DNA of 64,000 nucleotides from Erythrobacter sp. WG (lineage in GTDB: Bacteria; Pseudomonadota; Alphaproteobacteria; Sphingomonadales; Sphingomonadaceae). The translations under genes and the position numbers were made by a program. Below, in pieces: positions 5,905-40,643 of this stretch. Each line of letters starts with the position of its first letter. Within the stretch, counting starts at the first letter, position 1. The stretch covers positions 1 to 64,000 of the forward strand of contig NZ_JAPFGY010000018.1 of assembly GCF_026586795.1 (NCBI RefSeq), read 5' to 3'. The notes below the pieces were generated by a model. That model searched no databases and was not told where the DNA came from. It saw only the letters and a list, made by a program, of their open reading frames with translations.

Positions 5905-8360
5905 CAGAACGCCTGGCCGAGGCTGACATAGACCACCACCGGGCTATCGAAGGCGGTCTTGTTGAGCGGGGCGGCAACATCGATGCGGATCGGGCCGAAG
6001 CTGGTCTTGTAGCGCAGGCCGATCCCGGCCCCGTAGCGGATATCGCCGAAGTCGGGGGTCGATCCGCGCGCGACCGAGCCGGCGTCAATGAAGGGCACCA
6101 CCTCGACCGAGCCGCCGAACAGCGGCGTCGGGATACGCGCCTCGAGCGCGAATTCGACGAGCGAGGCGCCGCCGGTGGGATTGCCGACCTCGTCACGCGG
6201 GCCGACGCCCTGGAAGCCGTAGCCGCGCACCGAACCGCCACCCCCGGCATAGAGCCGCCGCGAGGGCGCGACGTTGGCGATGTCGGTGCCCTGGATCGTC
6301 GCCGCCCGCGCACGGGCCGCCACGACCACCCCGCCGACCGGCTGGTAGTAGCTCGCATCGGCCTGTGCGCGCAGGTAATAGCTCTGCGCCCCTTGCGTGC
6401 GCGAGACCTCGGGCGCGACGAACAGCGTGGTGCGCCAGCCCTTGCGCGGATCGAGCAGATCGTCGCTCGCATCGAGCGTGACGCTGCCGAACAGCCCGCC
6501 CACCAGATAGGCCTGGCGCGGCGGGAGCGGCACATTGGCGTCGCGCGCGCGGCGGTTGAGGTTGCGCTCGTCGGTGTAGAGCAGCTCGCCGCCGACCTGG
6601 AAGCTCACCGGCTTCTGGAACAGGATGTTGGAGACCTTCTCGAAGGCCATGCGCAGGCCGAAGCCGCGCGAATCCACCGACAGGGTGTTGATGTCGCTGG
6701 CGTAGAGATCGGCGCTCAGAATCTGGTCGCGGCCGCGGAAGTTGTTGCGCCGGACGCCGACGCTCGCAAGCGCCTCGCGCGTGCCGATGATCCCGCGCAG
6801 CCGCAGCGCGCCTTCGGGCGGGAAGAGGTTGCGGTGTTCCCAGCGACCTTCCACCTTGAAGCCGTCCTCGCTGCCGTAGCCGATCGCGCCCGCAATGGTG
6901 CGCAAGGGTGCGCGCTCGATGCCGACATCGAGCGCCACCTCTCCCGGCTGATCGCCCTGCGGCGCGCGCGTCTCGCGCGGGGTGAGGGTGACGGACGAGA
7001 CGAGGCCGGTGGCGAGGATCGCGCGCCTGAGGTCGGTCTCGAGGCTCTTCTGGTAGACCTCGCCCGGCTCGAACCGGGCGATGCGCCCGAGGTGCCGGCT
7101 GGACAGGAACCGCGGGTCGCCGCTGACCACCGGCCCGAACACGTATTTGCCCTTCGGCTGCACATCGAGCGTGAGGTCGCCCTCCTCGCGCGCGTGATCG
7201 ATGAGCAGCGACGGCTCGCCGAGTTCCGCGAAGGGATAGCCGCTCTCGCCGAGCGCGACCCTGAGATTGAGCTCCTGATCGACGATCCGGTCGGCATAGA
7301 GCGGGTCGCCCGTCCTGATGCCGAAGACGCCTACGAGATTGGTCGCGTCGGGCTCGCGCAGCGTCGGAAGGGCCCCCAAGTTGATCTGCCCGAAGCGGTA
7401 ACGGGGCCCGGGAATGATATCGAACCGCACCGAAGCCTCGCGCGAAGCGGCCTCGGCGGCGCTGCCGTTGGCGGTGGCGTTGGCGGTGGCATTGGTGGTG
7501 GCGGGCACCGCCGCCGCATCCGTGCCCAGCCCCTCGCGCCGGCCGCCGGACAGCTGGCGCACCACCTCGCCATCGTAATAGCCATAGGTGCGCAGGATAT
7601 CGCCGAGCAGTTCCTCGTCCGCCCGCGCGCGGGCCGCGACCTGCGGGATGGCCTCGGGACCGCTGGTGTCGAGCGCGCGGAGGGTCGAAAGATCGCGGAA
7701 GCGCTCGACGAATTCCTCCTTCTCGGGGAAGGCGTCAGGATCGGCGGGGAGCGCGAGCACCAGCGTGCCGTCGATCCGTGTCTCGGCGAGTTCGGGCAAC
7801 CCGCCGATCACCGGCAGGTCGATCGCGGCGAGCGCCTCGGCCTCCGGGTCGGACGGCAGCGGTGCGGGATTTTCGACTGCGAGGTCGGCGAAGACCGCAT
7901 CGACTGCCGGATCGGCCGGCGGGACGACACCGGCGGCAAGCGCCTCGTCCTGCGGCCGCGCGGCGGCGGCAGGGTTGCCCTCCACACCCGCGGCGGCCCA
8001 GCCCTCTGGGTTGGCGAGCGCGCTTTCGGGGATCAGCGCGTCGAGCGAATCCGGGACGGGTACGAGCTCGGGCGCGATGCCGAAGGGCGAGGCGGCAGGC
8101 GCATCGTCGGCATCGTCATCCTGCGCCGGGTCGGGGGCACGCTCACCCTCCGCCGGGCGCGGCGCCTCGACGCGCGCCGGCTGGCCGGGGCCCTCCGACT
8201 GCGCCGCAGCCGGAACGGCGCCCAGCGCGAGCGTTCCCTGACCCAATCCTGCAACAACGGCGAGACCGAGCTTGAGACGCAGCCGGACCTCAGCTGGCCG
8301 TGAACTTGACAGGCTGGCCATCCTTGCCCCGCGCAGCCACCGGACCGTGGTCCCGCGCAT
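5904..8360 (-). CDS. tamA: Omp85-family outer-membrane protein TamA
   Basis: Outer-membrane barrel partner of TamB. The protein has an N-terminal signal region ending near AQSEG, a long Pro/Ala/Glu-rich linker (about residues 50-200), POTRA-like domains in the middle, and a 16-strand Omp85 barrel in the C-terminal half. The diagnostic barrel motif VRGYGFQG lies near residue 711, and the chain ends in an aromatic (SLGQAF). At 818 residues it is longer than E. coli TamA (about 577), mostly because of the linker and a small NATA tandem repeat. The start overlaps the bpt 3' end by about 70 bp; an ATG at 8321 is an alternative. Upstream of and coupled to tamB. Confidence 0.93.
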
Positions 8361-25010: not shown

Positions 25011-25496
25011 ATGAATTCCATTTCCTACGGTCTGCTGATCGCCTTGGCAATCGCGCTGCTGTTCGCCGCCTTCACCGATATCCGGCGGCGCCAGATCGAC
25101 AACTGGCTGAACCTTGCCATCGCCCTTGCCGCGCCGGTGTTCTGGTGGTCGCAGGGGCTCTCGCTGTGGCCCGACGTGGCGTTCCAGCTGGGGATGGCGG
25201 CGGCAGCCTTCGCGGTCTTCGCCGCGCTGTTCGCCTTCAAGGTGATGGGCGGCGGCGACGTCAAGCTGCTCACCGCGCTCGCGCTGTGGATCCCGTTCTA
25301 CGAATATATGCAGCTGCTGCTGATCATGGCGGTCACCGGCGGCGTGCTGACCATGATGCTGGTGTTCTGGCACGTCGCCCGCCGCCAGCGCGATCGCATC
25401 GCGGTGCCTTATGGCGTGGCGATTGCGGTGGGGGGGCTGTGGACCCTCGCGATCAACTATCTGCCGGCCGGGGCGCTCGCGGCGCAGGGCGCATAA
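25011..25496 (+). CDS. cpaA: Prepilin peptidase CpaA/TadV
   Basis: Short A24-family aspartic peptidase that trims prepilins of the Tad (type IVb) pilus. The two catalytic Asp motifs are visible: FTDIRRRQIDNW near residue 23 and GGGDVKLLTAL near residue 80, inside four to five membrane helices. The 161 residues fit the CpaA form lacking the methylase domain. ATG at 25011 chosen. First gene of the locus. No pilin gene precedes it in the 132-bp gap, which is unusual. Confidence 0.9.
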   Translation: MNSISYGLLIALAIALLFAAFTDIRRRQIDNWLNLAIALAAPVFWWSQGLSLWPDVAFQLGMAAAAFAVFAALFAFKVMGGGDVKLLTALALWIPFYEYMQLLLIMAVTGGVLTMMLVFWHVARRQRDRIAVPYGVAIAVGGLWTLAINYLPAGALAAQGA

Positions 25497-25503
25497 CCCG
25501 ATC

Positions 25504-25552
25504 TTAACCAGTCAAGCCTTACGCCACACAACCATACCTGCCCGCTAACCAT
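25504..25552. promoter_or_regulatory. Candidate CtrA half-sites before cpaB
   Basis: TTAACCAG (25504-25511) and CTAACCAT (25545-25552) resemble the TTAACCAT CtrA half-site. They sit between cpaA and cpaB. Tad pili are CtrA-controlled in Caulobacter, so regulation is plausible but unproven. Confidence 0.3.
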
Positions 25553-25584
25553 CTGAGGGCGTTTACGAGGGGGCTATTTGAGCC

Positions 25585-26724
25585 ATGGATAGGAAGAAAC
25601 TGGTTCTGTTGCTCGGTGCGCTGATCGTCGCGATCGGCACGGCCATCGCTGCGCGCACCATGTTCGCCGGAGGCACAGCCGCCCCCGCCGCCGAGGCTGC
25701 CCCGCAGCCGACCGGTCCCCGGGTCCTCGTCGCGAAGCGGGCGCTGCCTGCGGGCACGATCATCACCGCCGATGCGCTGGGCTTCCAGCCGTGGCCGCAG
25801 GAGCTGGTGCAGGACGCCTACTTCCTCGATGGCCAGGCCGACATGAACAAGCTGCTCGGCACGGTCGTGCGCTATCCGGTCACCGCCGGCGAGCCGGTCA
25901 CCCAGGGCTCGCTCGTCGCGCCGGGCGATCGCGGGTTCCTGGCCGCCGCGCTCGGCCCGGGGATGCGCGCCGTCACGGTGCCCGTCTCGGCCACCACGGG
26001 GGTCGCGGGCTTCGTCTTCGCCGGTGACCGGATCGATCTGATGCTCGTCCAGAGGTTCGGCGAGAAGCGTGCCGACGGGAGCGAGGGCAACCTCGACGGC
26101 GGCGAGACCCTGCTCGAGAACCTGCGTGTTCTCGCCACCGACCAGGCGACCGAGAAGACCACCGACGAGAACGGCAAGACCGTCGTCAACGAAATCCGCA
26201 CCGTCACGCTCGAAGTGACGCCGCGCCATGCCGAGCTGATCGCGATCGCCCAGTCGATGGGCACTCTGACGCTCTCGCTGCGCTCGATCTCGGACGGCCA
26301 GGGCTCGATCGACCGCGCGCTCGCCAAGAGCAGCGTCAAGATCCCCGAGAACGCCACGCCCGAAGAGGAAGAGCGGATCCTGAAGTCCGCCATGGGGGCG
26401 CCCCTGCGCGGCTCGAAAACCTTCCAGACCGCCGAGGAAGTGTCCGCCTTCTACCGTTCGATGGCCAGCAACAGCCGCCGGATGAGCAAGGAAATCGCCG
26501 CCTCCAGGGGCGCGCAGGGCACCTTCTCCGCCGGGCCGGCCGCCGCACCGGGCGCGTCCGCGCCCAAGGTCTACACCGGTCCCAGCGTCCGCGTGACCCG
26601 CGGCAAGGAGACCACCGAGGAGCAGGTCGCCACCGGCGCGAGGAGCATGGTCTCCAGCACGGCGCAAGGTATCGGCCGCGCCGGGAAGACCCTGCCCGCC
26701 GCCGGCGCGACGCTCGTCTTCTGA
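25585..26724 (+). CDS. cpaB: Flp pilus assembly protein CpaB/RcpC
   Basis: Periplasmic Tad-pilus assembly factor of 379 residues. An N-terminal membrane anchor (KKLVLLLGALIVAIGTAIAARTMF) precedes an SAF/BON-like domain (RVLVAKRALPAGTIITADALGFQPWP) and the RcpC domain (RAVTVPVSATTGVAGFVFAGDRIDLML). The C-terminal ~120 residues are low-complexity and positively charged. GAGGGGG about 12 bp upstream acts as a ribosome site. Confidence 0.93.
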   Translation: MDRKKLVLLLGALIVAIGTAIAARTMFAGGTAAPAAEAAPQPTGPRVLVAKRALPAGTIITADALGFQPWPQELVQDAYFLDGQADMNKLLGTVVRYPVTAGEPVTQGSLVAPGDRGFLAAALGPGMRAVTVPVSATTGVAGFVFAGDRIDLMLVQRFGEKRADGSEGNLDGGETLLENLRVLATDQATEKTTDENGKTVVNEIRTVTLEVTPRHAELIAIAQSMGTLTLSLRSISDGQGSIDRALAKSSVKIPENATPEEEERILKSAMGAPLRGSKTFQTAEEVSAFYRSMASNSRRMSKEIAASRGAQGTFSAGPAAAPGASAPKVYTGPSVRVTRGKETTEEQVATGARSMVSSTAQGIGRAGKTLPAAGATLVF

Positions 26725-26768
26725 GGACCACAGGGATCATGCCGAGTTTCTTCGAGGGGGGCCAACCC

Positions 26769-28358
26769 ATGACACGCAAGTTCAAGACCAAGCTGCTGGT
26801 CGCCGCGCTCGCCGCGGTGCCGATGGCAGCGATGCCGGCGGCGACCGCCACCGCGCAGCAGGTCGTCCGTCCGGCACAGGAAATCGTCCTGTCGATCGGC
26901 AAGGGCGAGCTGGTGACGGTGCCGGGCACCATGACCGACGTGTTCGTCGCCAACGACGCCATCGCCGACGTCCAGATCAAGTCGCAGCGCCAGCTCTACG
27001 TGTTCGGCAAGGCGGGCGGGGAGACCACCGTCTACGCCAGCAACGCGGCCGGCGACGTGATCTTCTCGGCCAACATCCGGGTGGGTTCCAACATCGGCAG
27101 CCTCGACCAGATGCTGGCGATGGCGATGCCCGAGGCCAAGGTCAGCGTGTCGACGATGGGCACCAACACCGTGCTGCTGACGGGCACCGTGTCCGCCCCC
27201 GAGGACGCTGCCGAGGCCGAGCGCCTCGTCACCGCCTTCCTCGGCAAGGAAGCCAACGTCATCAGCCGGTTGCGCACCGCAACGCCGTTGCAGGTCAACC
27301 TCCACGTCAAGATCGCCGAAGTCAGCCGCAGCCTGCTGCGCGAGATCGGCGGCAACCTGCAGACCATCGACGCGTCCAGCGGCTTCCGCTTCGGCGTCGG
27401 CACCGGCCGGCCGATCGGCGGTACCGGCGGGTGGCTGTTCGACGGCCCACTGGGCGCCGGCAACAGCGTCGCGAACACCGCGCTGGTCCTGCCCGATGGC
27501 AGCCGCATCGTCGGCCCGGCGGTGGATTCGCGCGGCGGCACCTCTCTGGCTGGCCTCGGCAAGCTGTTCGGCCTGAATATGCTCGGCGCGCTCGACCTGT
27601 CGGAACGCCTCGGCCTCGTGACCACCATCACCGAGCCCAACCTCACCGCGCTGTCGGGCGAGACCGCGACCTTCCTGGCGGGCGGCGAGTTCCCGATCCC
27701 GATCTCGCAGGGCCTCGGCAACGTGGCGATCGAGTTCCGGCAGTTCGGCGTCAGCCTCGCCTACACCCCGACGGTGCTGTCGAACGGCCGCATCTCGATG
27801 CGGGTGCGCCCGGAAGTCTCCGAGCTTTCGAGCCAGGGCGCGATCACGCTGAATGGCTTCCAGGTCCCGGCGATCACCACCCGCCGCACCGAGACGACCG
27901 TCGAGCTGGGTTCCGGCCAGAGCTTCATGATCGCCGGTCTGATGAGCGCCAGCTCGCAGAGCCAGATCGACAAGGCCCCGGGCCTCGGCGACGTGCCGAT
28001 CATCGGCAACCTGATGCGCAGCCGCCAGTTCCGCAAGGGCGAGACCGAGCTGGTGATCGTCGTCACCCCCTATCTCGTGAAGCCGGTCGACCCCAAGGAC
28101 ATCAAGCTGCCGACCGACGGCTATCATTCGGCCAACGAGCTCGAACAGCTGCTCGGCTTCCAGAACAACGCCGGCCGTTCCGGCGAGCAGCGCCCCGGCC
28201 CGACCGCCGCGCAGCCCGACGCGCCGCCGCCGCAGGTGAGCGCCGTCGAGCCGGCGGCGATCGTCCCGGTCCAGCCGGAACCGCAGCGTCAGGCGGAACG
28301 CAAGAGCCGCAAACCCGAACGTGCCGCGCGCGCCCCGGCGCCGGGCTTCAGCCTCTAA
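26769..28358 (+). CDS. cpaC: Outer-membrane secretin CpaC/RcpA
   Basis: Secretin through which the Tad pilus exits. After a signal peptide (LLVAALAAVPMAAMPAATATA), the N-terminal pilus/secretin domain (EIVLSIGKGELVTVPG) and a BON-like domain (TVLLTGTVSAPEDAAEAERL) lead to the type II/III secretin core (TTITEPNLTALSGETATFLAGGEFPIP, FRQFGVSLAYTPTV, KAPGLGDVPIIGNLMRS). A Pro/Arg-rich tail ends the 529 residues. ATG at 26769 has a strong GAGGGGG site 8 bp upstream; 26739 lacks one. Confidence 0.94.
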   Translation: MTRKFKTKLLVAALAAVPMAAMPAATATAQQVVRPAQEIVLSIGKGELVTVPGTMTDVFVANDAIADVQIKSQRQLYVFGKAGGETTVYASNAAGDVIFSANIRVGSNIGSLDQMLAMAMPEAKVSVSTMGTNTVLLTGTVSAPEDAAEAERLVTAFLGKEANVISRLRTATPLQVNLHVKIAEVSRSLLREIGGNLQTIDASSGFRFGVGTGRPIGGTGGWLFDGPLGAGNSVANTALVLPDGSRIVGPAVDSRGGTSLAGLGKLFGLNMLGALDLSERLGLVTTITEPNLTALSGETATFLAGGEFPIPISQGLGNVAIEFRQFGVSLAYTPTVLSNGRISMRVRPEVSELSSQGAITLNGFQVPAITTRRTETTVELGSGQSFMIAGLMSASSQSQIDKAPGLGDVPIIGNLMRSRQFRKGETELVIVVTPYLVKPVDPKDIKLPTDGYHSANELEQLLGFQNNAGRSGEQRPGPTAAQPDAPPPQVSAVEPAAIVPVQPEPQRQAERKSRKPERAARAPAPGFSL

Positions 28359-28377
28359 GGTGAGAAAGGTGACCGTG

Positions 28378-29028
28378 ATGCCTTATGCACGACAAATGAA
28401 GCTCGCCTCGGCGCTGGCCCTCGGCCTGGCCCTTGCCGGCTGCGGCGGAATGCCGACCAACACCTCGCTCTATTCGGTCAAGCAGCCGGTGGTCGAGCGG
28501 TCCAACATGACCCTCGACGTGGCGATCGCGCCGGGCGGGATTCCGATCTCGGAGCAGCAGCGCATCGCCGGCTGGTTCGAAACGCTGAACCTGCGCTACG
28601 GTGATCGGATCGCGATCGACAACCCCACCCAGAATCCGGCGGTGGCGAACGCGGTGCGCGAGCTTGCGGCGCGCTACGGGCTGATGATCGCCGATGCCGC
28701 GCCGGTCACCCCGGGCTATATCGAGCCCGGCCAGGCGCGTATCGTCATCACCCGCGCCAGCGCCAACGTTCCGGGCTGCCCCGACTGGTCGGCCAAGTCC
28801 GACTCGAACTACACCAACGGCGTGAGCCCCAATTTCGGCTGCGCGACCAACAGCAACCTGGCTGCGATGGTCGCCGATCCGCAGGACCTGCTGGAAGGCA
28901 AGAAGGGTTCGGGCGAGACCGTGATCGCCACCTCGAACAAGGCGATCTCGACCTATCGCGAGATGGAGCCGACCGGCAAGGCCGGCCTCAAGATCGAAAC
29001 CCCCGGCGGCAACGGAGGAGGTAACTAA
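28378..29028 (+). CDS. cpaD: Pilus assembly lipoprotein CpaD
   Basis: Outer-membrane lipoprotein that helps the CpaC secretin. The signal peptide ends with a lipobox (LALAGCGG, Cys near residue 22). The mature protein has the CpaD core: NPAVANAVRELAARYGL, then VPGCPDWSAKSDSNYTNGVSPNFGCATNSNLAAMVADPQDL, with paired cysteines. Length 216. An AAAGGTG site precedes ATG 28378; ATG 28396 is an alternative. Followed 3 bp later by cpaE. Confidence 0.93.
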   Translation: MPYARQMKLASALALGLALAGCGGMPTNTSLYSVKQPVVERSNMTLDVAIAPGGIPISEQQRIAGWFETLNLRYGDRIAIDNPTQNPAVANAVRELAARYGLMIADAAPVTPGYIEPGQARIVITRASANVPGCPDWSAKSDSNYTNGVSPNFGCATNSNLAAMVADPQDLLEGKKGSGETVIATSNKAISTYREMEPTGKAGLKIETPGGNGGGN

Positions 29029-29031
29029 GCC

Positions 29032-30312
29032 ATGAATGCACCCTGGAAATCGGGCCTGCCCGGCAACCGCGACCCCTTCTCGGCCTATATCTGCGACGAT
29101 GCCGCGCTGGATGTGATCCGTCCGGTGGTGATCGAACTCGGCTGGCAGCCGGAGAAGTGCAACAAGGGCGGCCTGCGCAACGCGGTGCAATCGCTCTCGG
29201 TCAGCGCCTCGCCAGCGATCCTCATGGTCGACCTGTCGGAGAGCGGCGATCCGCTGAACGACATCAACGCGCTTGCCGAGGTGTGCGAACCCGGCACGGT
29301 GGTGATCGCCGTCGGCCAGGTCAACGACGTGCGCCTCTACCGCGATCTGCTCTCGAGCGGGATCCACGACTACCTCCTGAAGCCGCTGTCGCCCCAGGCC
29401 GTGCATGACGCCCTGAACCAGGCGCTGGCGGTGTTCATGAGCCCCAAGGCGGGCGATGCCGATGGGGCCAAGCGCCACATCTCGACCGCCGTGGTGGGCA
29501 CCCGCGGGGGCGTGGGCGCCTCGACGCTGGCGACCTCGCTCGCCTGGCTGTTTTCCGAACAGCACAAGGCGCCGACCGCGCTGCTCGACCTCGACGTGCA
29601 CTTCGGCACCGGCGCGCTCGCGCTCGATCTCGAGCCGGGCCGCGGCCTCACCGACGCGATCGAGAACCCGAGCCGCATCGACCCCCTGTTCATCGAACGC
29701 GCGATGGTGCGCGCCGGGGACAACCTGTCGATCCTCTCGGCCGAAGCCCCGATCAGCCAGCCGCTGATGACCGATGGCAGCGCCTTCGTGCAGCTCGAGG
29801 ACGAGTTCCGTCAGGCCTTCGAGATGACGGTCATCGACCTGCCGCGCAACATGCTGATCAACTTCCCGCAGCTGCTGGCGGACGTGAACCTGGTGGTGCT
29901 GACCTGCGAGCTCACCCTCGCCTCGGCGCGCGACACGATCCGGCTCTTGTCGTGGCTCAAGTCCAACGCGAGCCACGCGCACCCGATGGTCGTCGCCAAC
30001 AAGGTGCAGCCCGGCGTCGCCGAGATCAGCAAGGCCGATTTCGAGGCCTCGATCGAGCGCAAGGTCGATTTCGTGGTGCCCTACGACATCAAGGCGGCCT
30101 CCAACGCGGCCAAGCTCGGCCAGGTGTTCGTCGATGCCAACCGTTCGAGCAAGGCGACCGCGGCGATGCGCCAGATCGCCGAGCGGGTGATGGGCGTGAG
30201 TTCCGATGACGTGGCGGCGGGCGGCGGCGAGAAGAAGTCGCTGCTGGGCAACTTCGATCTGAAGTCGCTGGTCGCCAAGAAGAACAAGGCGCCCGCCGAA
30301 CCGGCGGAATAA
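29032..30312 (+). CDS. cpaE: Pilus-positioning ATPase-like protein CpaE/TadZ
   Basis: MinD/ParA-superfamily protein that localises the Tad pilus machinery. It has an N-terminal receiver-like domain (about residues 15-135) with LYRDLLSSGIHDYLLKPLSP, and a C-terminal P-loop domain. The deviant Walker A at residues 156-165 reads GTRGGVGAST: the catalytic Lys of GK[TS] is Ala, so classical ATP hydrolysis is doubtful, as in other TadZ/CpaE proteins. GGAGG lies 12 bp before the ATG. Normally cpaF follows; here only 68 bp separate it from tadB. Confidence 0.92.
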   Translation: MNAPWKSGLPGNRDPFSAYICDDAALDVIRPVVIELGWQPEKCNKGGLRNAVQSLSVSASPAILMVDLSESGDPLNDINALAEVCEPGTVVIAVGQVNDVRLYRDLLSSGIHDYLLKPLSPQAVHDALNQALAVFMSPKAGDADGAKRHISTAVVGTRGGVGASTLATSLAWLFSEQHKAPTALLDLDVHFGTGALALDLEPGRGLTDAIENPSRIDPLFIERAMVRAGDNLSILSAEAPISQPLMTDGSAFVQLEDEFRQAFEMTVIDLPRNMLINFPQLLADVNLVVLTCELTLASARDTIRLLSWLKSNASHAHPMVVANKVQPGVAEISKADFEASIERKVDFVVPYDIKAASNAAKLGQVFVDANRSSKATAAMRQIAERVMGVSSDDVAAGGGEKKSLLGNFDLKSLVAKKNKAPAEPAE

Positions 30313-30380
30313 GGGCGAGCGGCACGGCAAGGGGCGGCTCTCCGCGCCCCCCAGGCGAAAACTGAGCAGGAATAGGCGGC

Positions 30381-31352
30381 ATGGACTTTCTCCAGACCCT
30401 GATCATCACGCTGGCGATCTTCGCCATGCTCGTCTTCGGCTACCTGCTGATCACCGGGTCGGGCGCGTCCAAGGCGCAGAAGCGCCGGATGCAGGCGGTG
30501 CGCTACCGCCACTCCGAAAGCCTCGATGCCAAGGTCGACGCGCAGTTCAAGCGCGCCATCGCCGCCCGCAAGCCCAAGACCTACAAGGTCGCAGGCTCCG
30601 GCTCGCGCGCCGAGGCGCTGGCGATGCGGCTCAACCGCACCGGCAAGAGCTGGACGGTCAATCAGTACCTCTACGCCACGATCGGCCTGATCGTGGCGGT
30701 GGCCGGGCTGACCTTCAGCCTCTCGGGCGCGCCGCTGCTGTCGCTCGGGGTCGGCGCGGTGGTCGGTGCGGGGCTGCCGCACCTGGTGGTGAACTACCTC
30801 ATCAACAAGCGCACCAATGCCTTCATCAACAAGTTCCCCGACGGCATCGAACTGCTCGTGCGCGGCCTCAGGTCCGGCCTGCCGGTGACCGAGACGCTGC
30901 AGATCGTCTCGCAGGAAGTGCCCGGGCCCGTCGGCTTCGAATTCAAGACGGTGATCGACCGCATCAAGGTCGGCAAGACCATGGAGGATGCGCTTCAGGA
31001 CACCGCCGACAAGCTCGGCATCGCCGAATTCAACTTCTTCACCATCACCCTCGCCATCCAGCGCGAGACGGGGGGCAACCTTGCCGAGACGCTGTCGAAC
31101 CTTGCCAACGTGCTGCGCCTGCGCGCGCAGATGAAGCTCAAGATCCGGGCGATGAGTTCCGAATCCAAGGCCTCGGCCTACATCGTCGGCTCGCTGCCCT
31201 TCCTCGTGTTCGGCGCGATCATGTTCATCAACCCGGAATACATGAGCCAGTTCTTCATCGACGACCGCCTGATCGTCGCCGGCCTCGGCGCGGGCGTGTG
31301 GATGGGGATCGGCGTGTTCATGATGGCCAAGATGATCAACTTCGAGATCTGA
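30381..31352 (+). CDS. tadB: Tad pilus inner-membrane protein TadB
   Basis: Type II secretion F-domain platform protein of 323 residues. One N-terminal membrane segment, a paired helix around GLIVAVAGLTFSLSGAPLLSLGVGAVVG, the cytoplasmic F domain (FPDGIELLVRGLRSGLPVTETLQIVSQEVPGPVG, QRETGGNLAETLSNLANVLRLR), and two C-terminal helices. Forms the inner-membrane platform with TadC. 19 bp separate it from tadC. Confidence 0.93.
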   Translation: MDFLQTLIITLAIFAMLVFGYLLITGSGASKAQKRRMQAVRYRHSESLDAKVDAQFKRAIAARKPKTYKVAGSGSRAEALAMRLNRTGKSWTVNQYLYATIGLIVAVAGLTFSLSGAPLLSLGVGAVVGAGLPHLVVNYLINKRTNAFINKFPDGIELLVRGLRSGLPVTETLQIVSQEVPGPVGFEFKTVIDRIKVGKTMEDALQDTADKLGIAEFNFFTITLAIQRETGGNLAETLSNLANVLRLRAQMKLKIRAMSSESKASAYIVGSLPFLVFGAIMFINPEYMSQFFIDDRLIVAGLGAGVWMGIGVFMMAKMINFEI

Positions 31353-31371
31353 GCGCGGGGGGACAGGAACC

Positions 31372-32367
31372 ATGATGAACCAGCCTCAAGGCCCGATGCT
31401 GCTCGGCTTCGATGTCATGGTGGTCGGCACCGTGCTCGCCGGCCTCGCCGCCTTCGCGGTGATGCTCGCGATCTATGCCGCCGTCACCATCCGCGATCCG
31501 ATGGCCAAGCGCGTGAAGGCGCTGGAGGCGCGGCGCGAACAGCTCAAGGCCGGGATCGTCACGGCCTCATCGAAGAAGCGCACCAGCCTGGTGCGCCGCA
31601 CCGAAACCACCGACAAGGTCAAGGACAGCCTCGGACGCCTCAACGTCCTCCAGGAAAGCCAGGTCAAGTCGATCCAGCAGAAGCTGGCGCACGCGGGCTA
31701 CCGCAACAAGGAACTGGCGGTCATCATCATCGGGATGCGCGCGATCGCCCCGCTGGTGATCGGCGGCGCGATGGGCCTGCTCATTTACGTCGTCGAGTTC
31801 TGGCCCGACTGGGGCCCGATGACCCGCCTGTTCGCCTTCGCGATCAGCGTCTTTCTCGCCTACAAGGGCCCGGAACTCTACCTCAGCAACAAGGCGACCA
31901 AGCGCACCAAGGAAATCCAGAAGGGCCTGCCCGACGCGCTCGACCTGCTGGTGATCTGCGCCGAGGCGGGCCTTACCGTGGACGCCGCCTTCAACCGCGT
32001 CGCCAAGGAACTGGGCCGCGCCTATCCCGAGCTGGGCGACGAATTCGCCCTCACCGCGATCGAGCTGTCCTTCCTCAACGAACGCAAGCACGCCTTCAAC
32101 AACCTCGCCTACCGCGTCAATCTCGAAGCGGTGAAGGGCGTGGTGACGACCATGATCCAGACCGAACGCTACGGCACCCCGCTCGCATCCGCGCTGCGCG
32201 TGCTCTCGGCCGAATTCCGCAACGAGCGCATGATGCGCGCCGAGGAAAAGGCCGCGCGCCTGCCCGCGATCATGACCGTGCCGCTGATCGTGTTCATCCT
32301 GCCCACGCTGTTCGTGGTCATTCTCGGCCCGGCGGCCTGTTCGATCTCCGACAACCTCGTCAAATAG
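31372..32367 (+). CDS. tadC: Tad pilus inner-membrane protein TadC
   Basis: Second F-domain platform protein (331 residues). Membrane segments occur near residues 15-38, 120-142, 147-165 and 295-320. The F domain has KGLPDALDLLVICAEAGLTVDAAFNRVAKELG and YGTPLASALRVLSAEFRNERMMRAEEKAARLP, characteristic of TadC. Last gene of the cluster, followed by a strong hairpin terminator. Confidence 0.93.
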   Translation: MMNQPQGPMLLGFDVMVVGTVLAGLAAFAVMLAIYAAVTIRDPMAKRVKALEARREQLKAGIVTASSKKRTSLVRRTETTDKVKDSLGRLNVLQESQVKSIQQKLAHAGYRNKELAVIIIGMRAIAPLVIGGAMGLLIYVVEFWPDWGPMTRLFAFAISVFLAYKGPELYLSNKATKRTKEIQKGLPDALDLLVICAEAGLTVDAAFNRVAKELGRAYPELGDEFALTAIELSFLNERKHAFNNLAYRVNLEAVKGVVTTMIQTERYGTPLASALRVLSAEFRNERMMRAEEKAARLPAIMTVPLIVFILPTLFVVILGPAACSISDNLVK

Positions 32368-32402: not shown

Positions 32403-32438
32403 AGGGGCCGGAGCGGGTTCAGACCCGCTCCGGCCCCT
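32403..32438. terminator. Bidirectional hairpin between tadC and the MarR gene
   Basis: A perfect 16-bp stem, AGGGGCCGGAGCGGGT, pairs with its complement around the 4-base loop TCAG. The MarR stop codon (minus strand) lies within this loop region. Little T-tract is present on either side, so Rho-independent strength is uncertain, but the position suits termination of both convergent units. Confidence 0.6.
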
Positions 32439-32904
32439 CTTGGTTGGCGGCACCCAGGCTGGTGGCGCGCTCGCGCAAGGCGCCCAGCAGGCGGCGCAGC
32501 AGCGCCTCCTCCTGCGGCGCGAGCCCGGCGAGAAGATCGGCCTCGGTGGCCCGGGCCAGCGGCATGACCTCGGCATGGATGCCCCGCCCCTCGCCCGTCA
32601 GCGCGAGGAGGTGCGATCGCCCGTCCTCCGGGTTCGGCACCCGCGCGACGAGCCCGCGATCCTCGAGCACCTTGACCGCGCGGTTGACAGCGACCTTGTC
32701 CATCACCGTCGCGGCGGTCAGCGCGCGCTGGGTCATGCTGCCCGCATCCCCGAGCACCGCCATCACCCGCCATTCCGCGATCTTCAGCCCGAAGCGCTTG
32801 CGATACCGCTCGGCGATCAAGCTGCTCACCGCGTTGGAGGCGACCGAGAGCTGGTAGGGCAGGAAACCCGCCAACTCGCCGGCGCCCTCGGCACCGTCAT
32901 TCAT
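32419..32904 (-). CDS. MarR-family transcriptional regulator
   Basis: Winged-helix regulator of 161 residues. The MarR fold is visible: QLSVASNAVSSLIAERYRKRFGLKIAEWRVMAVLGD, recognition region TQRALTAATVMDKVAVNRAVKVLEDRGLV, and the wing RVPNPEDGRSHLLALT. ATG at 32904 overlaps the crotonase stop by 8 bp, placing it at the end of the acyl-CoA cluster; control of that cluster is a reasonable inference. The ligand is unknown. Confidence 0.88.
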   Translation of the reverse strand: MNDGAEGAGELAGFLPYQLSVASNAVSSLIAERYRKRFGLKIAEWRVMAVLGDAGSMTQRALTAATVMDKVAVNRAVKVLEDRGLVARVPNPEDGRSHLLALTGEGRGIHAEVMPLARATEADLLAGLAPQEEALLRRLLGALRERATSLGAANQEGPERV

Positions 32905-33769
32905 AGGGGCGCTCGTCCCACCACGGGTAGAAATCGGGCATATCGGCGCTGACCTTGCCGGGGTACATCGGGCGGCGCTTCTCAAGGAAGCTGGCGATGC
33001 CTTCCTTCGCGTCCGCGCTCCGGCTGAGGCGGTAGATGGCGCGGCTGTCGATCTTGTGGGCTTCCATCGGGTGATCCGCCGCCGCGAGCCGCCACATCAT
33101 CGCCCGGGTCATCGCGACCGACACGCCCGAGGTGTTGTCGGCGATCTCGCGGGCGAGGCTGTGCGCGGCGTGGAGGAGATCGTCGGGCGCGTGGACAGAC
33201 CGGACGAGGCCGCCGGCCTTCGCCTCCGCAGCATCGAAGATGCGGCCGGTGTAGCACCACTCCAAGGCTTGGGCGATGCCGACGATGCGCGGCAGGAACC
33301 AGCTCGAGGCGGCTTCCGGCACGATCCCGCGCCGCGCGAAGACGAAACCGTAGCGGGCGTGGGCGGCGGCGAGACGGATGTCCATCGCCAGCTGCATGGT
33401 CGCGCCCACGCCGACCGCGACACCGTTGCAGGCGGAGATGAGCGGCTTCTTGCTCTCGAACAGGCGCAGGGTGAGGCGGCCCCCGCCATCGCGCACCCTG
33501 GCGTCGGACAGGTCGGCAACCTCGGTCGGATCGGAGAAGACGTGGCCCCCGCCCTCCGGCGTCAGGTCCGCGCCCGCGCAGAAGGCCTTCTCGCCAGCCC
33601 CGGTGAATATCACGGCGCGCACGGCATCGTCGGCGTCGATGTCGTCCATCGCCGCGATGATCTCCGCGCCCATGGTGCGGGTGTAGGCGTTCATCTTTTC
33701 AGGGCGGTTCAAGGTGATGGTGGCGATGCCGTCGGCCTTGTCGACGATGATCTGGGTGTAGTGGGTCAT
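32897..33769 (-). CDS. Enoyl-CoA hydratase/isomerase (crotonase) family protein
   Basis: Crotonase-fold enzyme acting on CoA thioesters. The oxyanion-hole segments FTGAGEKAFCAGADLTPEGGG and CNGVAVGVGATMQLAMDIRLAA and the acidic region GFVFARRGIVPEAASSWFLPR match enoyl-CoA hydratases. Length 290. ATG at 33769 gives the family start MTHYTQIIVDKADGIATITLNRPEKMNAY. Overlaps marR; likely beta-oxidation or branched-acid degradation with the neighbouring SDR and thiolase. Confidence 0.9.
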   Translation of the reverse strand: MTHYTQIIVDKADGIATITLNRPEKMNAYTRTMGAEIIAAMDDIDADDAVRAVIFTGAGEKAFCAGADLTPEGGGHVFSDPTEVADLSDARVRDGGGRLTLRLFESKKPLISACNGVAVGVGATMQLAMDIRLAAAHARYGFVFARRGIVPEAASSWFLPRIVGIAQALEWCYTGRIFDAAEAKAGGLVRSVHAPDDLLHAAHSLAREIADNTSGVSVAMTRAMMWRLAAADHPMEAHKIDSRAIYRLSRSADAKEGIASFLEKRRPMYPGKVSADMPDFYPWWDERPYE

Positions 33770-36161: not shown

Positions 36162-37430
36162 TCAGCCACGGGCGTCCGAAATCTCGTAGAAGCTCTGTAA
36201 CAGCCCCTGTTCCTCGATGGTGAGATGGGGGTTCCAGACATCGAAAATCAGCACGATACGCGGTTCGGCACTGTCGTTCCAGGCTTCGTGTTCGATCGTG
36301 TCGTCAAAGGCGAAAGCCTCCCCCTCGCGCCATTCGCGGGTCTCGCCGCCAACACGAAAGCGGCAGCCGCTCGGCACAACCAGCGGCAGGTGGACGATGG
36401 CCCGCGTATTGGTGACGCCGGTGTGCGGCGGGATATGCGCCTTGGGGGCGAGGATAGAGAAGAAGGCTGATGGCGCCTTGCCGGGGATGCGGTTGCGCGG
36501 CGCGGCTTCGAGCGCCGCAACAGTCTCAGGGCAACGGGCGCAGACCGCTTCATTCGGCTCGCCATACTCCCAGAGAAAGCAGGCGCTCCAGGCCAAGGAG
36601 TGATCGAGCGCCGACCACTTGTTCTGCGGTGTTCCGGGGTCTTGCCGGACGTAGGGGCGGATCGCCTCTCCGCCGTCACGCAGCAAGGCCAGCGCCTCCG
36701 CCCGGATGGCATCGGTCCGCGCCTCGATCTGATCCAACCAGGGGAAATGCTGGCGGTCGAAGAATTCGTCGGCGGGCAGGAACGGAAAGTAAATGCCGTG
36801 ACACTCGTTCTTGTAGATGGCCCGGCGCCCCAGAAGATGGTCGACGCAGGCCCCGAAGCGGCGACCGGCGGTACCGAGCCTCGCCAGTTCCGCGCCGAGC
36901 GCCTCGTCCAGCGCGCGCGCCAGTCGGTCGTTGTGCTGCGCCAGAAAGGCCTGTCCACGCCTGAGCGCATCGGCAACGCCGGGCGGGCGGTCCTGCATGG
37001 AAAGCGCCATCTGAACGACTCCGCTCCACCCTTGTGCCGCCTTGGCCGTCCGCCCGCATCGCTGGTCGAGTTCGGCCATGCGAAGGTTCGCCATGAAGTG
37101 CAGACGATCGAGCGACAGGGCGCGCTCCAGTGCGTCTGCCTCGCCTGCATCGTCGCCGAGCAGACGATGCGCCGCCGCAAGGTTCATCCACAGGGCGGGC
37201 TCCTTGCTGTCCGCTTGCGCTGCTGCCGCGAAGAAGTTTCGCGCGCCCGCGCCGTCCTGATCGGAAAGAGCGCGAACGCCTCGTGCGTTCAAGGCGCGCG
37301 GATCGCTGGGCGCAATGCGCAACGCAGCGTCGAGGTGACGCAGCTCATCACTGCGGTGACCGGCTTGGCGTGCGCGCAAGGCGGCGGAGAGTTCGGCGTC
37401 CAGCGGGGATTGGCGGTCAGGCATTTTCAC
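36162..37430 (-). CDS. TPR-containing aspartyl/asparaginyl beta-hydroxylase (AspH) domain protein
   Basis: Two-domain protein of 422 residues. Residues ~1-150 are TPR-like helices (ALRARQAGHRSDELRHLDAALRIAPSDPRALNARG, AALWMNLAAAHRLLGDDAGEADALERAL). Residues ~255-415 are a 2-oxoglutarate/Fe(II) AspH fold: HTGVTNTRAIVHLPL, FRVGGETREWREGEAFAFDDTIEHEAWN, IVLIFDVWNPHLT, with the expected iron His residues. AspH enzymes hydroxylate Asp/Asn in proteins or peptides. It lies 3' of a TonB receptor gene on the same strand, a neighbour pair common in sphingomonads; a role in modifying or processing an imported peptide is inference. Confidence 0.85.
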   Translation of the reverse strand: MKMPDRQSPLDAELSAALRARQAGHRSDELRHLDAALRIAPSDPRALNARGVRALSDQDGAGARNFFAAAAQADSKEPALWMNLAAAHRLLGDDAGEADALERALSLDRLHFMANLRMAELDQRCGRTAKAAQGWSGVVQMALSMQDRPPGVADALRRGQAFLAQHNDRLARALDEALGAELARLGTAGRRFGACVDHLLGRRAIYKNECHGIYFPFLPADEFFDRQHFPWLDQIEARTDAIRAEALALLRDGGEAIRPYVRQDPGTPQNKWSALDHSLAWSACFLWEYGEPNEAVCARCPETVAALEAAPRNRIPGKAPSAFFSILAPKAHIPPHTGVTNTRAIVHLPLVVPSGCRFRVGGETREWREGEAFAFDDTIEHEAWNDSAEPRIVLIFDVWNPHLTIEEQGLLQSFYEISDARG

Positions 37431-37486
37431 CGTCTAGCGGAGGGCAGTCAGCCCACGCAAGCCACGGCTTGTCGCACGAAAGGAAA

Positions 37487-37510
37487 GGGAGCGGCCTTTC
37501 GACCGCTCCC
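37487..37510 (-). terminator. Hairpin terminator after TonB receptor 1
   Basis: GGGAGCGG and CCGCTCCC form an 8-bp stem with loop CCTTTCGA. On the minus strand it is followed by TTTCCTTTC. It separates the receptor transcript from the AspH gene. Confidence 0.5.
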
Positions 37511-37538
37511 TCCCATTACCCTTAGCTGTGATCGGCGA

Positions 37539-40511
37539 TCAGAACGTCACGCGCGCCGTGATGTTGAAGCGGCGACCGAGCACGTCGTAGTTCGACGGGA
37601 AGGTGTTACCGCTGTTCGCGCCGGTGGAGCCGACGTTGCTGCCGGTCAGCGGCGGATCACGATCGAACAGGTTGGTAACCACCCCGATGAATTCGAAGTT
37701 CTCGGCAACGCGGAAGCGAGCCGAAAGATCGAAGTAGTGGTAGGCACCAATCCTGTTGAAATCCTCGGTCGCGCCCACGAACGGGGTCGTGCCGGTGATC
37801 GTGCCCCGGAAGATGTTCCGCGTCGCGGCAGTGAAGCCACGGGCGATGAAATCATCTGCCTGACCCTCGTATTCGACCGGGTGGATGTAGCGCCACAGGA
37901 GCGACAGATCGACCGAGCCGAAGGTCAGCGTGGTACGCTGCTGGAAGGAGAACTCGGGCGCGATGTTGCCGACCGTCGGGCCGCAGTTCACGCTGAAGTA
38001 ACCCACGCAGTTGCGATTGAACGACGTCGGCGACGCACGGAAGAACAGGCTGTTCGTCCAGTTGCCGATGAAGTTCAGGTTCAGCCCGACCTTACCGATC
38101 TGACGGCTGTAGTTCATCGTCAGGTCGATACCGTCGGTCTCGAAGCGGCCACTGTTCGACAGCAGCAACGGAAGACCGAAAGTATCCGCCGGCGAACCCG
38201 AAAGGCTGCCATCCGCGGGGCTGCGGCGGATGGTGTTGCACGCCGCGGTATTCGCCGCCGCTGCCGACACCGACGCCGGGTTGGTACCGAAGCAGGCGGC
38301 AATCACGTCACCGGGCGCCGGCTGCGTGATCGCGTCATTCACCTTGATGTTGTAGTAGTCCACCGAGAGCGTGAAGCCGTCGAACAGCGCGCCCGGGCTG
38401 ATCACAGCACCGACCGTGAAGGTGTCGGCCGTTTCCGGACGGATGTTGGGATTGCCACCCTGTTGCGACTGCGCCTGACCGGCGGCCGGCGCAGGGATGC
38501 GCCCGATGGTCGCCGCCGGCGCACCCTGCGCAAGACACACCGCCGTCAGGCCGGCGTTGCCCACAGGCGCGGCGCCTTGGCACGGATCGACGGCGAGGTT
38601 GGTGAGGAGGATGTTAACCGGCGAGAACAGCTCCGCGATGTTCGGCGCACGCACGGCGCGCTGATAGTTGCCGCGGAACTTCAGGTCAGCAACCGGCTCC
38701 CAGCTACCGCCGACCTTCCACGTCGTAGTATCGAAGTTCGGATTGTTAGCCGCTTCGACGCTGTACGACGAATAACGAATGCCGGCTTCGAGGGTCAGCG
38801 ATTCCGCGAAGGGAACGCCGGCAAGGAGCGGCGCGACGACTTCGCCGAACACTTCCTTGACGTCGTAGCTGCCGGTGAACGGGGGTACGGCACCGCCCGC
38901 GCCACCGAGTTCGCCCGGGACAGCAGCAAAGTTGTCAGGGATGCGCTCGTAACCATAGTCACGATATTCCGCACCGACCGCGTAAGAGATCGGTTCCGCG
39001 CCCGCAGAAAGACTGCCGAAGTCCCCGGTCAGGATGGCGCGGGCTTGCGAGAGACGATTCTTGATCGTGATCGTGCTCTGCCCCGCAATGAAGGCAACCT
39101 GCGCAGGGCTGATGCTCCCCGACGGACCGAACAGGTTGAGCGGGACGCAGCCCCCGGTGGTGACGGTGCAGGTGTTGGGGTTGGTCGCATTCAGGGCCTG
39201 CTGAACGCGCGAGCGCAAGGTGTAGCCCGACTGGATCTGGACCAGATCGCTCTCACCATAGGCACCCGAGATATCGAGGCGCGTGCGCTCGTCGATATTG
39301 ACGCGCATGCCGGCGCGATAGTCGAAGAAGGTCGTCGTGAAGTCCGAAATGCGCGGCCCGAGCTCGACCGTGCGACGGAACACCGCAGGCAACACAAGCG
39401 CCGGGTTGTTGTTGCACGCCGCACCGAGCGCGATCCCGTTGGCCGTGCAGATCTGGTCACGCACGCCAGCCGGAAGGAACGGGTTGTTGCCCGGGATCGT
39501 CAGACGCTCGCCGAAGATGCCGGACGGCGCGATGATCGTGTCGATTTCATTCTTCGAGAAGATCGCCCGCCCATAGACCTCGATCGTGTCGGTCAACTCG
39601 TAGTTGGCGGCCGAGTACACGTTGAAACGGCGGGAAGGAGTCTGGAAGATGTTGAAGGGGTTGAAGTTGAAGCCCTGGTATTCGGGCACCAGCTGGGTGC
39701 TAGCCGGGTTCAGCTGAAGACGGGTGCCACCAAGCGTGACCGTCGTCGGAACCGACGTCGGAGAGGACCCTGCGCCACGACCGGTCAGGCCGTTGACCTC
39801 GAAAACCGAGATGTCCCGCGCGCCCTGGAAGATGGCGTCGATTTCCTGGTAACCCAGGCTCAGCACGGCGTTGCCGCGGCCGTCGTCGAAGTTGGCGCCA
39901 ATGGTGATGTCGGCGGTGAAGGAGTGACCATCACCCTCTTCGGTGATGCCGTTGGACACCTGCGCGAGCAGACCCGCGAAGTCCTTGCGGGTGATGAAGT
40001 TGACAACGCCCGACACCGCGTCGGCGCCGTAGGTGGTCGATGCACCGCCGGTGAGAACCTCCGCACGCTGCAGCAGCGCGACAGGGATGTTGTTGAGGTC
40101 GACGGTCCCCAGCTGGTTGGCAGTGACGAGGCGGTCACCGTCGAGCAGCACGAGGTTGCGCTGAGCACCGAGGCCGCGCAGATCGACGGTCGCGAAGCCG
40201 CCGTTGCCGTTGTTGGTCTGAGCGCCGATGCCCGGCACCACACCCGGCAATTCGCGGATCACCTGCTCGGTGCTCTGGATCGCGCGAAGCTGGAGTTCGC
40301 TCTCGGCCACCACGTTGACCGGGCTGGACGACTCAAGGTTCGCGTTGCGGATCAGCGAGCCGGTCACCACGATTTCGCCGGAGGGAGCAGAAGCCTCGGG
40401 CGCCTCGGTGGCGACGTCAGAGGAGTCCTGTGCCAGTGCAGGCTGCGCGATTGCAGCGCAGCCGGCGATGAAAGTGGTCGCCATCAAGCGCGATCGAATT
40501 TGGTACTTCAT
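37539..40511 (-). CDS. TonB-dependent receptor 1
   Basis: Outer-membrane active-transport barrel (990 residues). Signal peptide to ALAQ near residue 28; a TonB-box-like GEIVVTGSLIRNANLE near 42-57; plug domain with LPGVVPGIGAQTNNGNGGFATVDLRGLGAQRNLVLLDG and TGGASTTYGADAVSGVVNFI; a ~750-residue barrel ending in the aromatic tail NITARVTF. Cys pairs in extracellular loops (CTVTTGGC, NCVGYFSVNC) suggest loop disulfides. It belongs to the large oligopeptide/organic-substrate receptor group of sphingomonads rather than a siderophore type, by length and plug style. Ligand unknown. ATG at 40511 preceded by AAAGGG. Confidence 0.9.
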   Translation of the reverse strand: MKYQIRSRLMATTFIAGCAAIAQPALAQDSSDVATEAPEASAPSGEIVVTGSLIRNANLESSSPVNVVAESELQLRAIQSTEQVIRELPGVVPGIGAQTNNGNGGFATVDLRGLGAQRNLVLLDGDRLVTANQLGTVDLNNIPVALLQRAEVLTGGASTTYGADAVSGVVNFITRKDFAGLLAQVSNGITEEGDGHSFTADITIGANFDDGRGNAVLSLGYQEIDAIFQGARDISVFEVNGLTGRGAGSSPTSVPTTVTLGGTRLQLNPASTQLVPEYQGFNFNPFNIFQTPSRRFNVYSAANYELTDTIEVYGRAIFSKNEIDTIIAPSGIFGERLTIPGNNPFLPAGVRDQICTANGIALGAACNNNPALVLPAVFRRTVELGPRISDFTTTFFDYRAGMRVNIDERTRLDISGAYGESDLVQIQSGYTLRSRVQQALNATNPNTCTVTTGGCVPLNLFGPSGSISPAQVAFIAGQSTITIKNRLSQARAILTGDFGSLSAGAEPISYAVGAEYRDYGYERIPDNFAAVPGELGGAGGAVPPFTGSYDVKEVFGEVVAPLLAGVPFAESLTLEAGIRYSSYSVEAANNPNFDTTTWKVGGSWEPVADLKFRGNYQRAVRAPNIAELFSPVNILLTNLAVDPCQGAAPVGNAGLTAVCLAQGAPAATIGRIPAPAAGQAQSQQGGNPNIRPETADTFTVGAVISPGALFDGFTLSVDYYNIKVNDAITQPAPGDVIAACFGTNPASVSAAAANTAACNTIRRSPADGSLSGSPADTFGLPLLLSNSGRFETDGIDLTMNYSRQIGKVGLNLNFIGNWTNSLFFRASPTSFNRNCVGYFSVNCGPTVGNIAPEFSFQQRTTLTFGSVDLSLLWRYIHPVEYEGQADDFIARGFTAATRNIFRGTITGTTPFVGATEDFNRIGAYHYFDLSARFRVAENFEFIGVVTNLFDRDPPLTGSNVGSTGANSGNTFPSNYDVLGRRFNITARVTF

Positions 40512-40643
40512 CTGAGCCCTTTCTTGCTTGCCCATACAAGTTGCAATACGACGCGTGGCGTCGCAGCCCCCACACGAGCTATCGCGCCAGCTAATCCATG
40601 TTGTCCCGCGGCTGCAAATGGGCGATGCATTCCGAAAGAAGAT

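Follow-up and report, generated by a model that had tools for sequence, protein, structure and literature searches.

Tight adherence (Tad) pili have been described with a single motor ATPase, CpaF, that serves both extension and retraction (PMC12019362), and most systems are reported to have no dedicated retraction ATPase, with the question of whether a single bidirectional CpaF holds across the family stated as unknown (PMC11300603). Here we describe the Tad (Cpa) pilus cluster of Erythrobacter sp. WG, which lies in a 64,000-nucleotide stretch of contig NZ_JAPFGY010000018.1 (the window) and comprises cpaA-B-C-D-E-tadB-tadC without the motor gene cpaF. Gene content, gene positions, a CpaF tree, co-occurrence and conserved residues were computed, and from the gene content, the co-occurrence and the conserved platform-facing residues we infer, with a probability of roughly 0.8, that the cluster motor has given way to an old CpaF paralogue, which powers the pilus although its gene is unlinked to the cluster. 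The Tad system is very probably functional. The paralogue, a solitary CpaF, is labelled CpaF2 below and the cluster motor CpaF1.

The closest described counterpart is the Cpa system of Caulobacter crescentus, the source of the solved CpaF structures (PDB 9e24, 8rkd and 8rjf). The CpaF of Erythrobacter sp. WG matches solved CpaF across residues 22-507 (E 6.2e-148) and keeps the checked residues except S333. In Caulobacter the pilin, cpaA-F and tadB/C genes stand together, whereas here the cpaA-tadC cluster is separated from cpaF, from the pilins and from the TadE-domain genes. Type IVa pili with their PilB/PilT pairs offer a second comparison, as genomes encoding CpaF1 and CpaF2 likewise have two motor ATPases, with one detectable Tad platform pair. 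In contrast to PilB/PilT, however, both motors belong to the CpaF family and neither is a PilT, a retraction role for one of them would be hypothetical, and the genome studied here has one motor. Searches of a partial literature collection found no paper that treats CpaF motor exchange or a two-CpaF clade in its title or the start of its abstract.

Organisation of the cpaA-tadC cluster

Open reading frames (ORFs) and profile searches place seven genes, all of the expected families, on the plus strand between positions 25011 and 32367 of the window:

25011-25496, plus strand: cpaA/tadV-type prepilin peptidase (Peptidase_A24, PF01478, E 7.6e-18)
25585-26724, plus strand: cpaB/rcpC (TIGR03177, 206.7 bits against a cut-off of 71; PF16976)
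26739-28358, plus strand: cpaC/rcpA secretin (PF00263, E 5.6e-40; PF13629)
about 28378-29028, plus strand: cpaD lipoprotein (Pilus_CpaD, PF09476, E 1.4e-43)
29032-30312, plus strand: cpaE/tadZ, with a Walker A motif, GTRGGVGAST, without lysines
30313-30380, no strand: junction at the usual place of cpaF, 68 bp between the end of cpaE (30312) and the start of tadB (30381)
30381-31352, plus strand: tadB platform protein (CpaG; T2SSF, PF00482, E 1.6e-23)
31372-32367, plus strand: tadC platform protein (CpaH; T2SSF, PF00482, E 1.4e-18)

The start given for cpaD is a later ATG that we chose within an ORF listed from 28321; tadB and tadC, both T2SSF, are told apart by position alone; and CpaE is assigned from ParA/MinD-like matches and gene position, with no CpaE model above its cut-off. 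An earlier sequence-only reading of this DNA had reported a gap in the cluster, and the gap is real, with intact genes on either side and a junction that recurs in relatives and is not due to chance. As that reading had also claimed, no ATPase, pilin or TadE-type gene was found within the cpaA-tadC locus. A TadB/TadC pair is present, as are the secretin, CpaB, CpaD, CpaE/TadZ and the prepilin peptidase; a cpaF between cpaE and tadB is the usual arrangement, not found here, and does not itself count among the machine's components. The Walker A of CpaE lacks both lysines of the deviant pattern, again as first read, and this proved to be a trait of the clade.

Tad components elsewhere in the genome

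The possibility that the ATPase and pilin lie elsewhere was borne out by a search of the whole genome (G000, a 58-contig draft, 100% complete and 0.98% contaminated; handles beginning with G, C and L denote genomes, contigs and loci). Its two T2SSE matches are a CpaF on C55 and a VirB11-like protein on C12 (named by eye). The solitary CpaF (509 amino acids, C55 105867-107396) is unlinked to the cpaA-tadC cluster and is neighboured by a convergent small gene and a divergent glmS-like gene (glmS by eye). Four Flp pilins, all above the Pfam cut-off, stand in tandem within 1.2 kb on C27 (27027-28239; about 9028-10240 of L014), and three TadE-domain (PF07811) matches, also above cut-off, were found where C33 ends and C7 begins, probably one locus split by the assembly; the naming of these matches as TadE, TadF or TadG is our own. 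T2SSF matches in the whole genome are confined to tadB and tadC of the window. The Tad parts searched for (prepilin peptidase, CpaB, secretin, CpaD, CpaE/TadZ, TadB/TadC, CpaF, Flp and TadE-domain proteins) are thus all present, in at least four places of the genome.

The VirB11-like protein on C12 was considered as a Tad motor and rejected, as its match is shorter (profile positions 133-273) and it adjoins a VirB10-like gene (names by eye). The stretch in question (C12 1374-4838, L002), in which the ATPase follows the VirB10-like gene, would belong to a type IV secretion locus or to what is left of one.

Probable loss of the cluster motor

The cpaE-tadB junction was compared in 66 named loci retrieved with a TadB query from Erythrobacteraceae genera, Novosphingobium and unclassified Sphingomonadales or Alphaproteobacteria, which we place in the family (4.6-21 kb each, some ended by contig ends). 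In all 66, tadB directly follows cpaE, the two matches being 18-200 bp apart (median 114), and no CpaF match lies in the locus, and the run cpaE-tadB-tadC, or a longer one, recurs as far as the contigs reach. All 66 also share the CpaE Walker A motif GxRGGxGAS; among 81 further CpaE loci (some of them the same gene twice) the motif was read in 74, never with a lysine before the Ser/Thr, and seven gave no motif.

Outside the family the arrangement is different. Matches were found in 59 of 142 genomes of a class-level sample, and cpaE, cpaF and tadB stand side by side in 27 of the 28 best-matching loci read outside the family (L135-L162), the exception (L161) having neither cpaE nor tadB beside cpaF. 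Similarly, 27 of the best 30 CpaF matches from 52 genomes of the order outside the family sit between cpaE and tadB (L197-L223), with the other three coming from G290, G300 and G302. The missing cluster cpaF therefore does not seem to be ancestral, and an ancestor of this genome most likely lost the cluster motor. The split gene set is ordinary for the clade. Conserved synteny of the dispersed genes, which the sequence-only reading had named as the mark of an ordinary split, was found for cpaF, as a glmS-like or EamA-like neighbour of this genome's copy recurs within 1.5 kb in 21 of the 30 best family matches (by eye). No flp was detected in the 66 loci, although a short query can miss one.

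Distribution of CpaF1 and CpaF2 across the family

Co-occurrence was read from a sample of 149 family genomes, with CpaF and cpaE counted by eye, CpaF2 called at 72% identity or more to protein P0001 and main-type cpaE at 50% or more. CpaF2 is present in at least 125 of these genomes, 124 of which also have main-type cpaE, and no genome in the sample has main-type cpaE without any CpaF. Conversely, 20 of the 21 genomes without main-type cpaE have no CpaF2 among the matches listed. G028 has both CpaF2 and cpaE; its congener G110 lacks both and also has no T2SSF. In the 24 genomes on a single contig that carry both genes, cpaF2 and cpaE lie 50 kb to 1.97 Mb apart (with rounded genome sizes and circular genomes assumed); in G029 cpaF2 lies 11 kb upstream of cpaE.

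Each motor is missing in some lineages. CpaF1 is absent from the core Sphingomonadaceae and from G099. CpaF2 is absent from G012, G022 (67% complete) and G052, which have main-type cpaE and a cluster CpaF; it is reduced to its last 60 residues in G007, where cpaE is in pieces and the cluster motor in broken frames, and which has the companion gene described below; and it is broken in G294, a genome outside the sample, where the cluster cpaF reads through (L231, G294:C2:11000-23000), as expected of a redundant motor. Both motors occur with one tadB/tadC pair in four of the 149 genomes (G005, G040, G056 and G085). A second Tad platform for CpaF2 was sought in these four and not found: the one further T2SSF gene in each resembles GspF in carrying two domains within a single frame. 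Both motors may act on the one platform. In G013 and G030, a cluster CpaF lies inside a more divergent Tad cluster (cpaE at 35-36% identity). The CpaF matches listed reach E 7.9e-128, and the in-cluster ones among them have E 1.9e-143 or lower, so an intact cluster CpaF is improbable among second matches outside the list, although a broken one, of the kind seen in G007, could be missed.

Phylogeny of the motors

In the CpaF tree, CpaF2 forms a single clade with full support (Shimodaira-Hasegawa-like approximate likelihood ratio test, 100), which held all 41 of its rows in a first tree and all 34 in a second to which genes from sister families, where CpaF2 also occurs, had been added. The second tree used 13 order-level cluster genes, a subset of those fetched. 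The CpaF2 rows L084-L113 were thinned from 30 to 14, and nine rows of the first tree that were odd or had long branches, including the family row L127, were dropped. The order's cluster CpaF forms the other clade (20 of 21 rows, support 98), with L128, from a family genome whose Tad cluster is divergent, falling outside. Within the cluster clade, rows from genomes without CpaF2 (G012, G022 and G052) are interspersed with rows from genomes that have it (G085, G005 and G056), as reciprocal loss predicts. The plain reading of these trees would be that the gene was duplicated in the common ancestor of the Sphingomonadales or earlier and that differing losses came afterwards. Beyond what had been proposed from the window, the unlinked motor would then be an older paralogue and not the cluster gene moved.

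Selection and conserved residues

The cluster genes and cpaF2 are under purifying selection. Compared with Erythrobacter colymbi (L018), cpaC, cpaE, tadB and tadC have ratios of nonsynonymous to synonymous substitution rates (dN/dS) of 0.16-0.32, and cpaF2 has dN 0.023 and dS 0.398 against the copy in G439. The residues checked among those tested in Caulobacter CpaF for hydrolysis, hinge or platform contact (PMC11300603) include two hinge glycines, the Loop 8 Asp, the Central Loop E/G/G and the Walker B Glu, and all of these are kept in 21 of 21 rows of CpaF2 without the companion gene. The S333 position varies in these rows and in other CpaF groups too. Where the companion is present, the Walker A Lys, Walker B Glu and TLHANS His are kept in 13 of 13 rows, the Loop 8 aspartate is changed in three of 13, and the Central Loop E and first G in one of 13 each. 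These small numbers, in which the companion group is also the more diverse, would fit tighter constraint on platform-contact residues where CpaF2 is the sole motor.

A companion of cpaF2 in two-motor genomes

In two-motor genomes an ORF of about 79-105 amino acids directly follows cpaF2 (for example L115:8003-8257, L120:7549-7866 and L184:7348-7605), and, of 13 loci whose cpaF2 is intact, 12 show an overlap of 1-14 bp with its end, whereas in L226 the ORF starts 18 bp after it (starts chosen by us). Of three companions tested from sister lineages, DUF6812 (PF20660) matches one above its cut-off (32.0 against 27.1 bits) and two below; the genome studied here has no DUF6812 match. The predicted fold (mean predicted local distance difference test score 83.9) shows a weak likeness to Hfq/Sm (best E 0.015). 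In a class sample, 29 of 289 genomes have DUF6812-like matches, and none of the 30 class-level loci read outside the order shows a CpaF in its 1.5-kb flanks.

A search with an alignment of 14 companions found the gene in five of the 149 family genomes, namely the four two-motor genomes and G007, and in none of the 121 with CpaF2 and no cluster CpaF among the matches listed (four of four versus none of 121, Fisher p 1e-7 with relatedness ignored). In sister families, cpaF2 and companion occur together in nine more genomes (G290, G302, G305, G306, G309, G310, G312, G340 and, with cpaF2 broken, G294), all with a second CpaF match, whose place in the cluster was read in all but G310. G005, with both motors and the companion, is the tree sister of G099, of the same genus, which has CpaF2 alone, no companion and cpaE adjoining tadB (L243); loss of CpaF1 and loss of the companion therefore coincide at least twice.

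A further, tentative reading, which we consider improbable, is that ancestral Sphingomonadales may have run one Tad platform with CpaF1 in the cluster and with CpaF2 in a two-gene unit with a gating Hfq/Sm-like DUF6812 protein, CpaF2 being specialised (for example for retraction or on-demand use), and in the core Sphingomonadaceae CpaF2 would then have become a gateless, sole, bidirectional motor. G007 weakens this reading, as its companion has been retained while CpaF2 is a remnant (L244, G007:C1:599000-612000, about 6362-6789, where the companion ORF stands behind the last 60 CpaF2 residues); the remnant reflects either poor assembly or CpaF2 loss. If the reading is true, nature would offer both a Tad system run by two motors and a swap of one motor for the other.

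Proposed motor exchange and its alternatives

Replacement of CpaF1 by CpaF2 could have proceeded as follows. CpaF2 would have arisen no later than the base of the Sphingomonadales and coexisted with CpaF1; in this lineage it would have taken over, with cpaF1 lost from between cpaE and tadB and the DUF6812-type small protein after cpaF2 lost as well, an order of losses that we infer. The CpaF2 hexamer, expressed from its own locus, would dock on the TadB/TadC platform and insert Flp subunits from the C27 locus, and by analogy with Caulobacter it may also retract them, acting in both directions.

Several observations weigh against this account. The node joining CpaF1 and CpaF2 has a support of 90 and includes one class-level row (L155), and both trees come from a short search. 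Two independent tree events underlie the coupled loss of CpaF1 and companion. G300 (800 contigs, a poor assembly) has CpaF2 and companion with no second CpaF found, and G007, also poorly assembled, has companion and cluster motor with the CpaF2 remnant, so the motors and the companion are not always together. The CpaF matches of G007, G101, G134, G135 and G140 are not among the matches listed, and their kind is not readable there. In some family genomes a third CpaF clade, read in three as their second match (G077, G078 and G126; L235, L236 and L237), lies in a divergent Tad cluster of its own. Finally, G070 (200 contigs) has CpaF2 with cpaE absent and no Tad platform protein found.

Plain relocation of the cluster cpaF, without any paralogue, would account for a genome with one CpaF unlinked to the cluster, but is very improbable given that CpaF2 forms a clade apart from the order's cluster CpaF and that both motors occur together in the four two-motor genomes and in sister-family genomes. 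We consider it very improbable that the machine is decaying, as the sequence-only reading had allowed, or motorless, with the solitary CpaF serving something else. G070, with its CpaF2 and no detectable Tad cluster, speaks for this, but purifying selection on the cluster genes and cpaF2, the junction kept in every one of the 66 relatives and the joint absence of CpaF2 and cpaE from nearly all family genomes without main-type cpaE speak against it. Loss of cpaF from between cpaE and tadB as an artefact of a 58-contig draft is refuted by the single contig that spans the junction and by the same junction in 66 other records.

Motor exchange by CpaF2 would explain the apparently motorless Tad cluster of the clade. 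Together with the two-motor lineages, it deserves specialist attention. A clade with two CpaF paralogues alongside one platform, each missing in some lineages, is natural material for testing division of labour between motors.

Other features of the window

A promoter scan of the cluster returned no sigma-70-like site, and six terminator-like sites were found where 4.0 were expected. The first notable ORF past tadC is MarR-like (32419-32985, minus strand; by eye). Further downstream, a 422-amino-acid ORF resembling a tetratricopeptide repeat/aspartyl-hydroxylase protein (36162-37430, minus strand) neighbours a 998-amino-acid TonB-dependent receptor-like ORF (37539-40535, minus strand), the pair, both named by eye, spanning 36162-40535.

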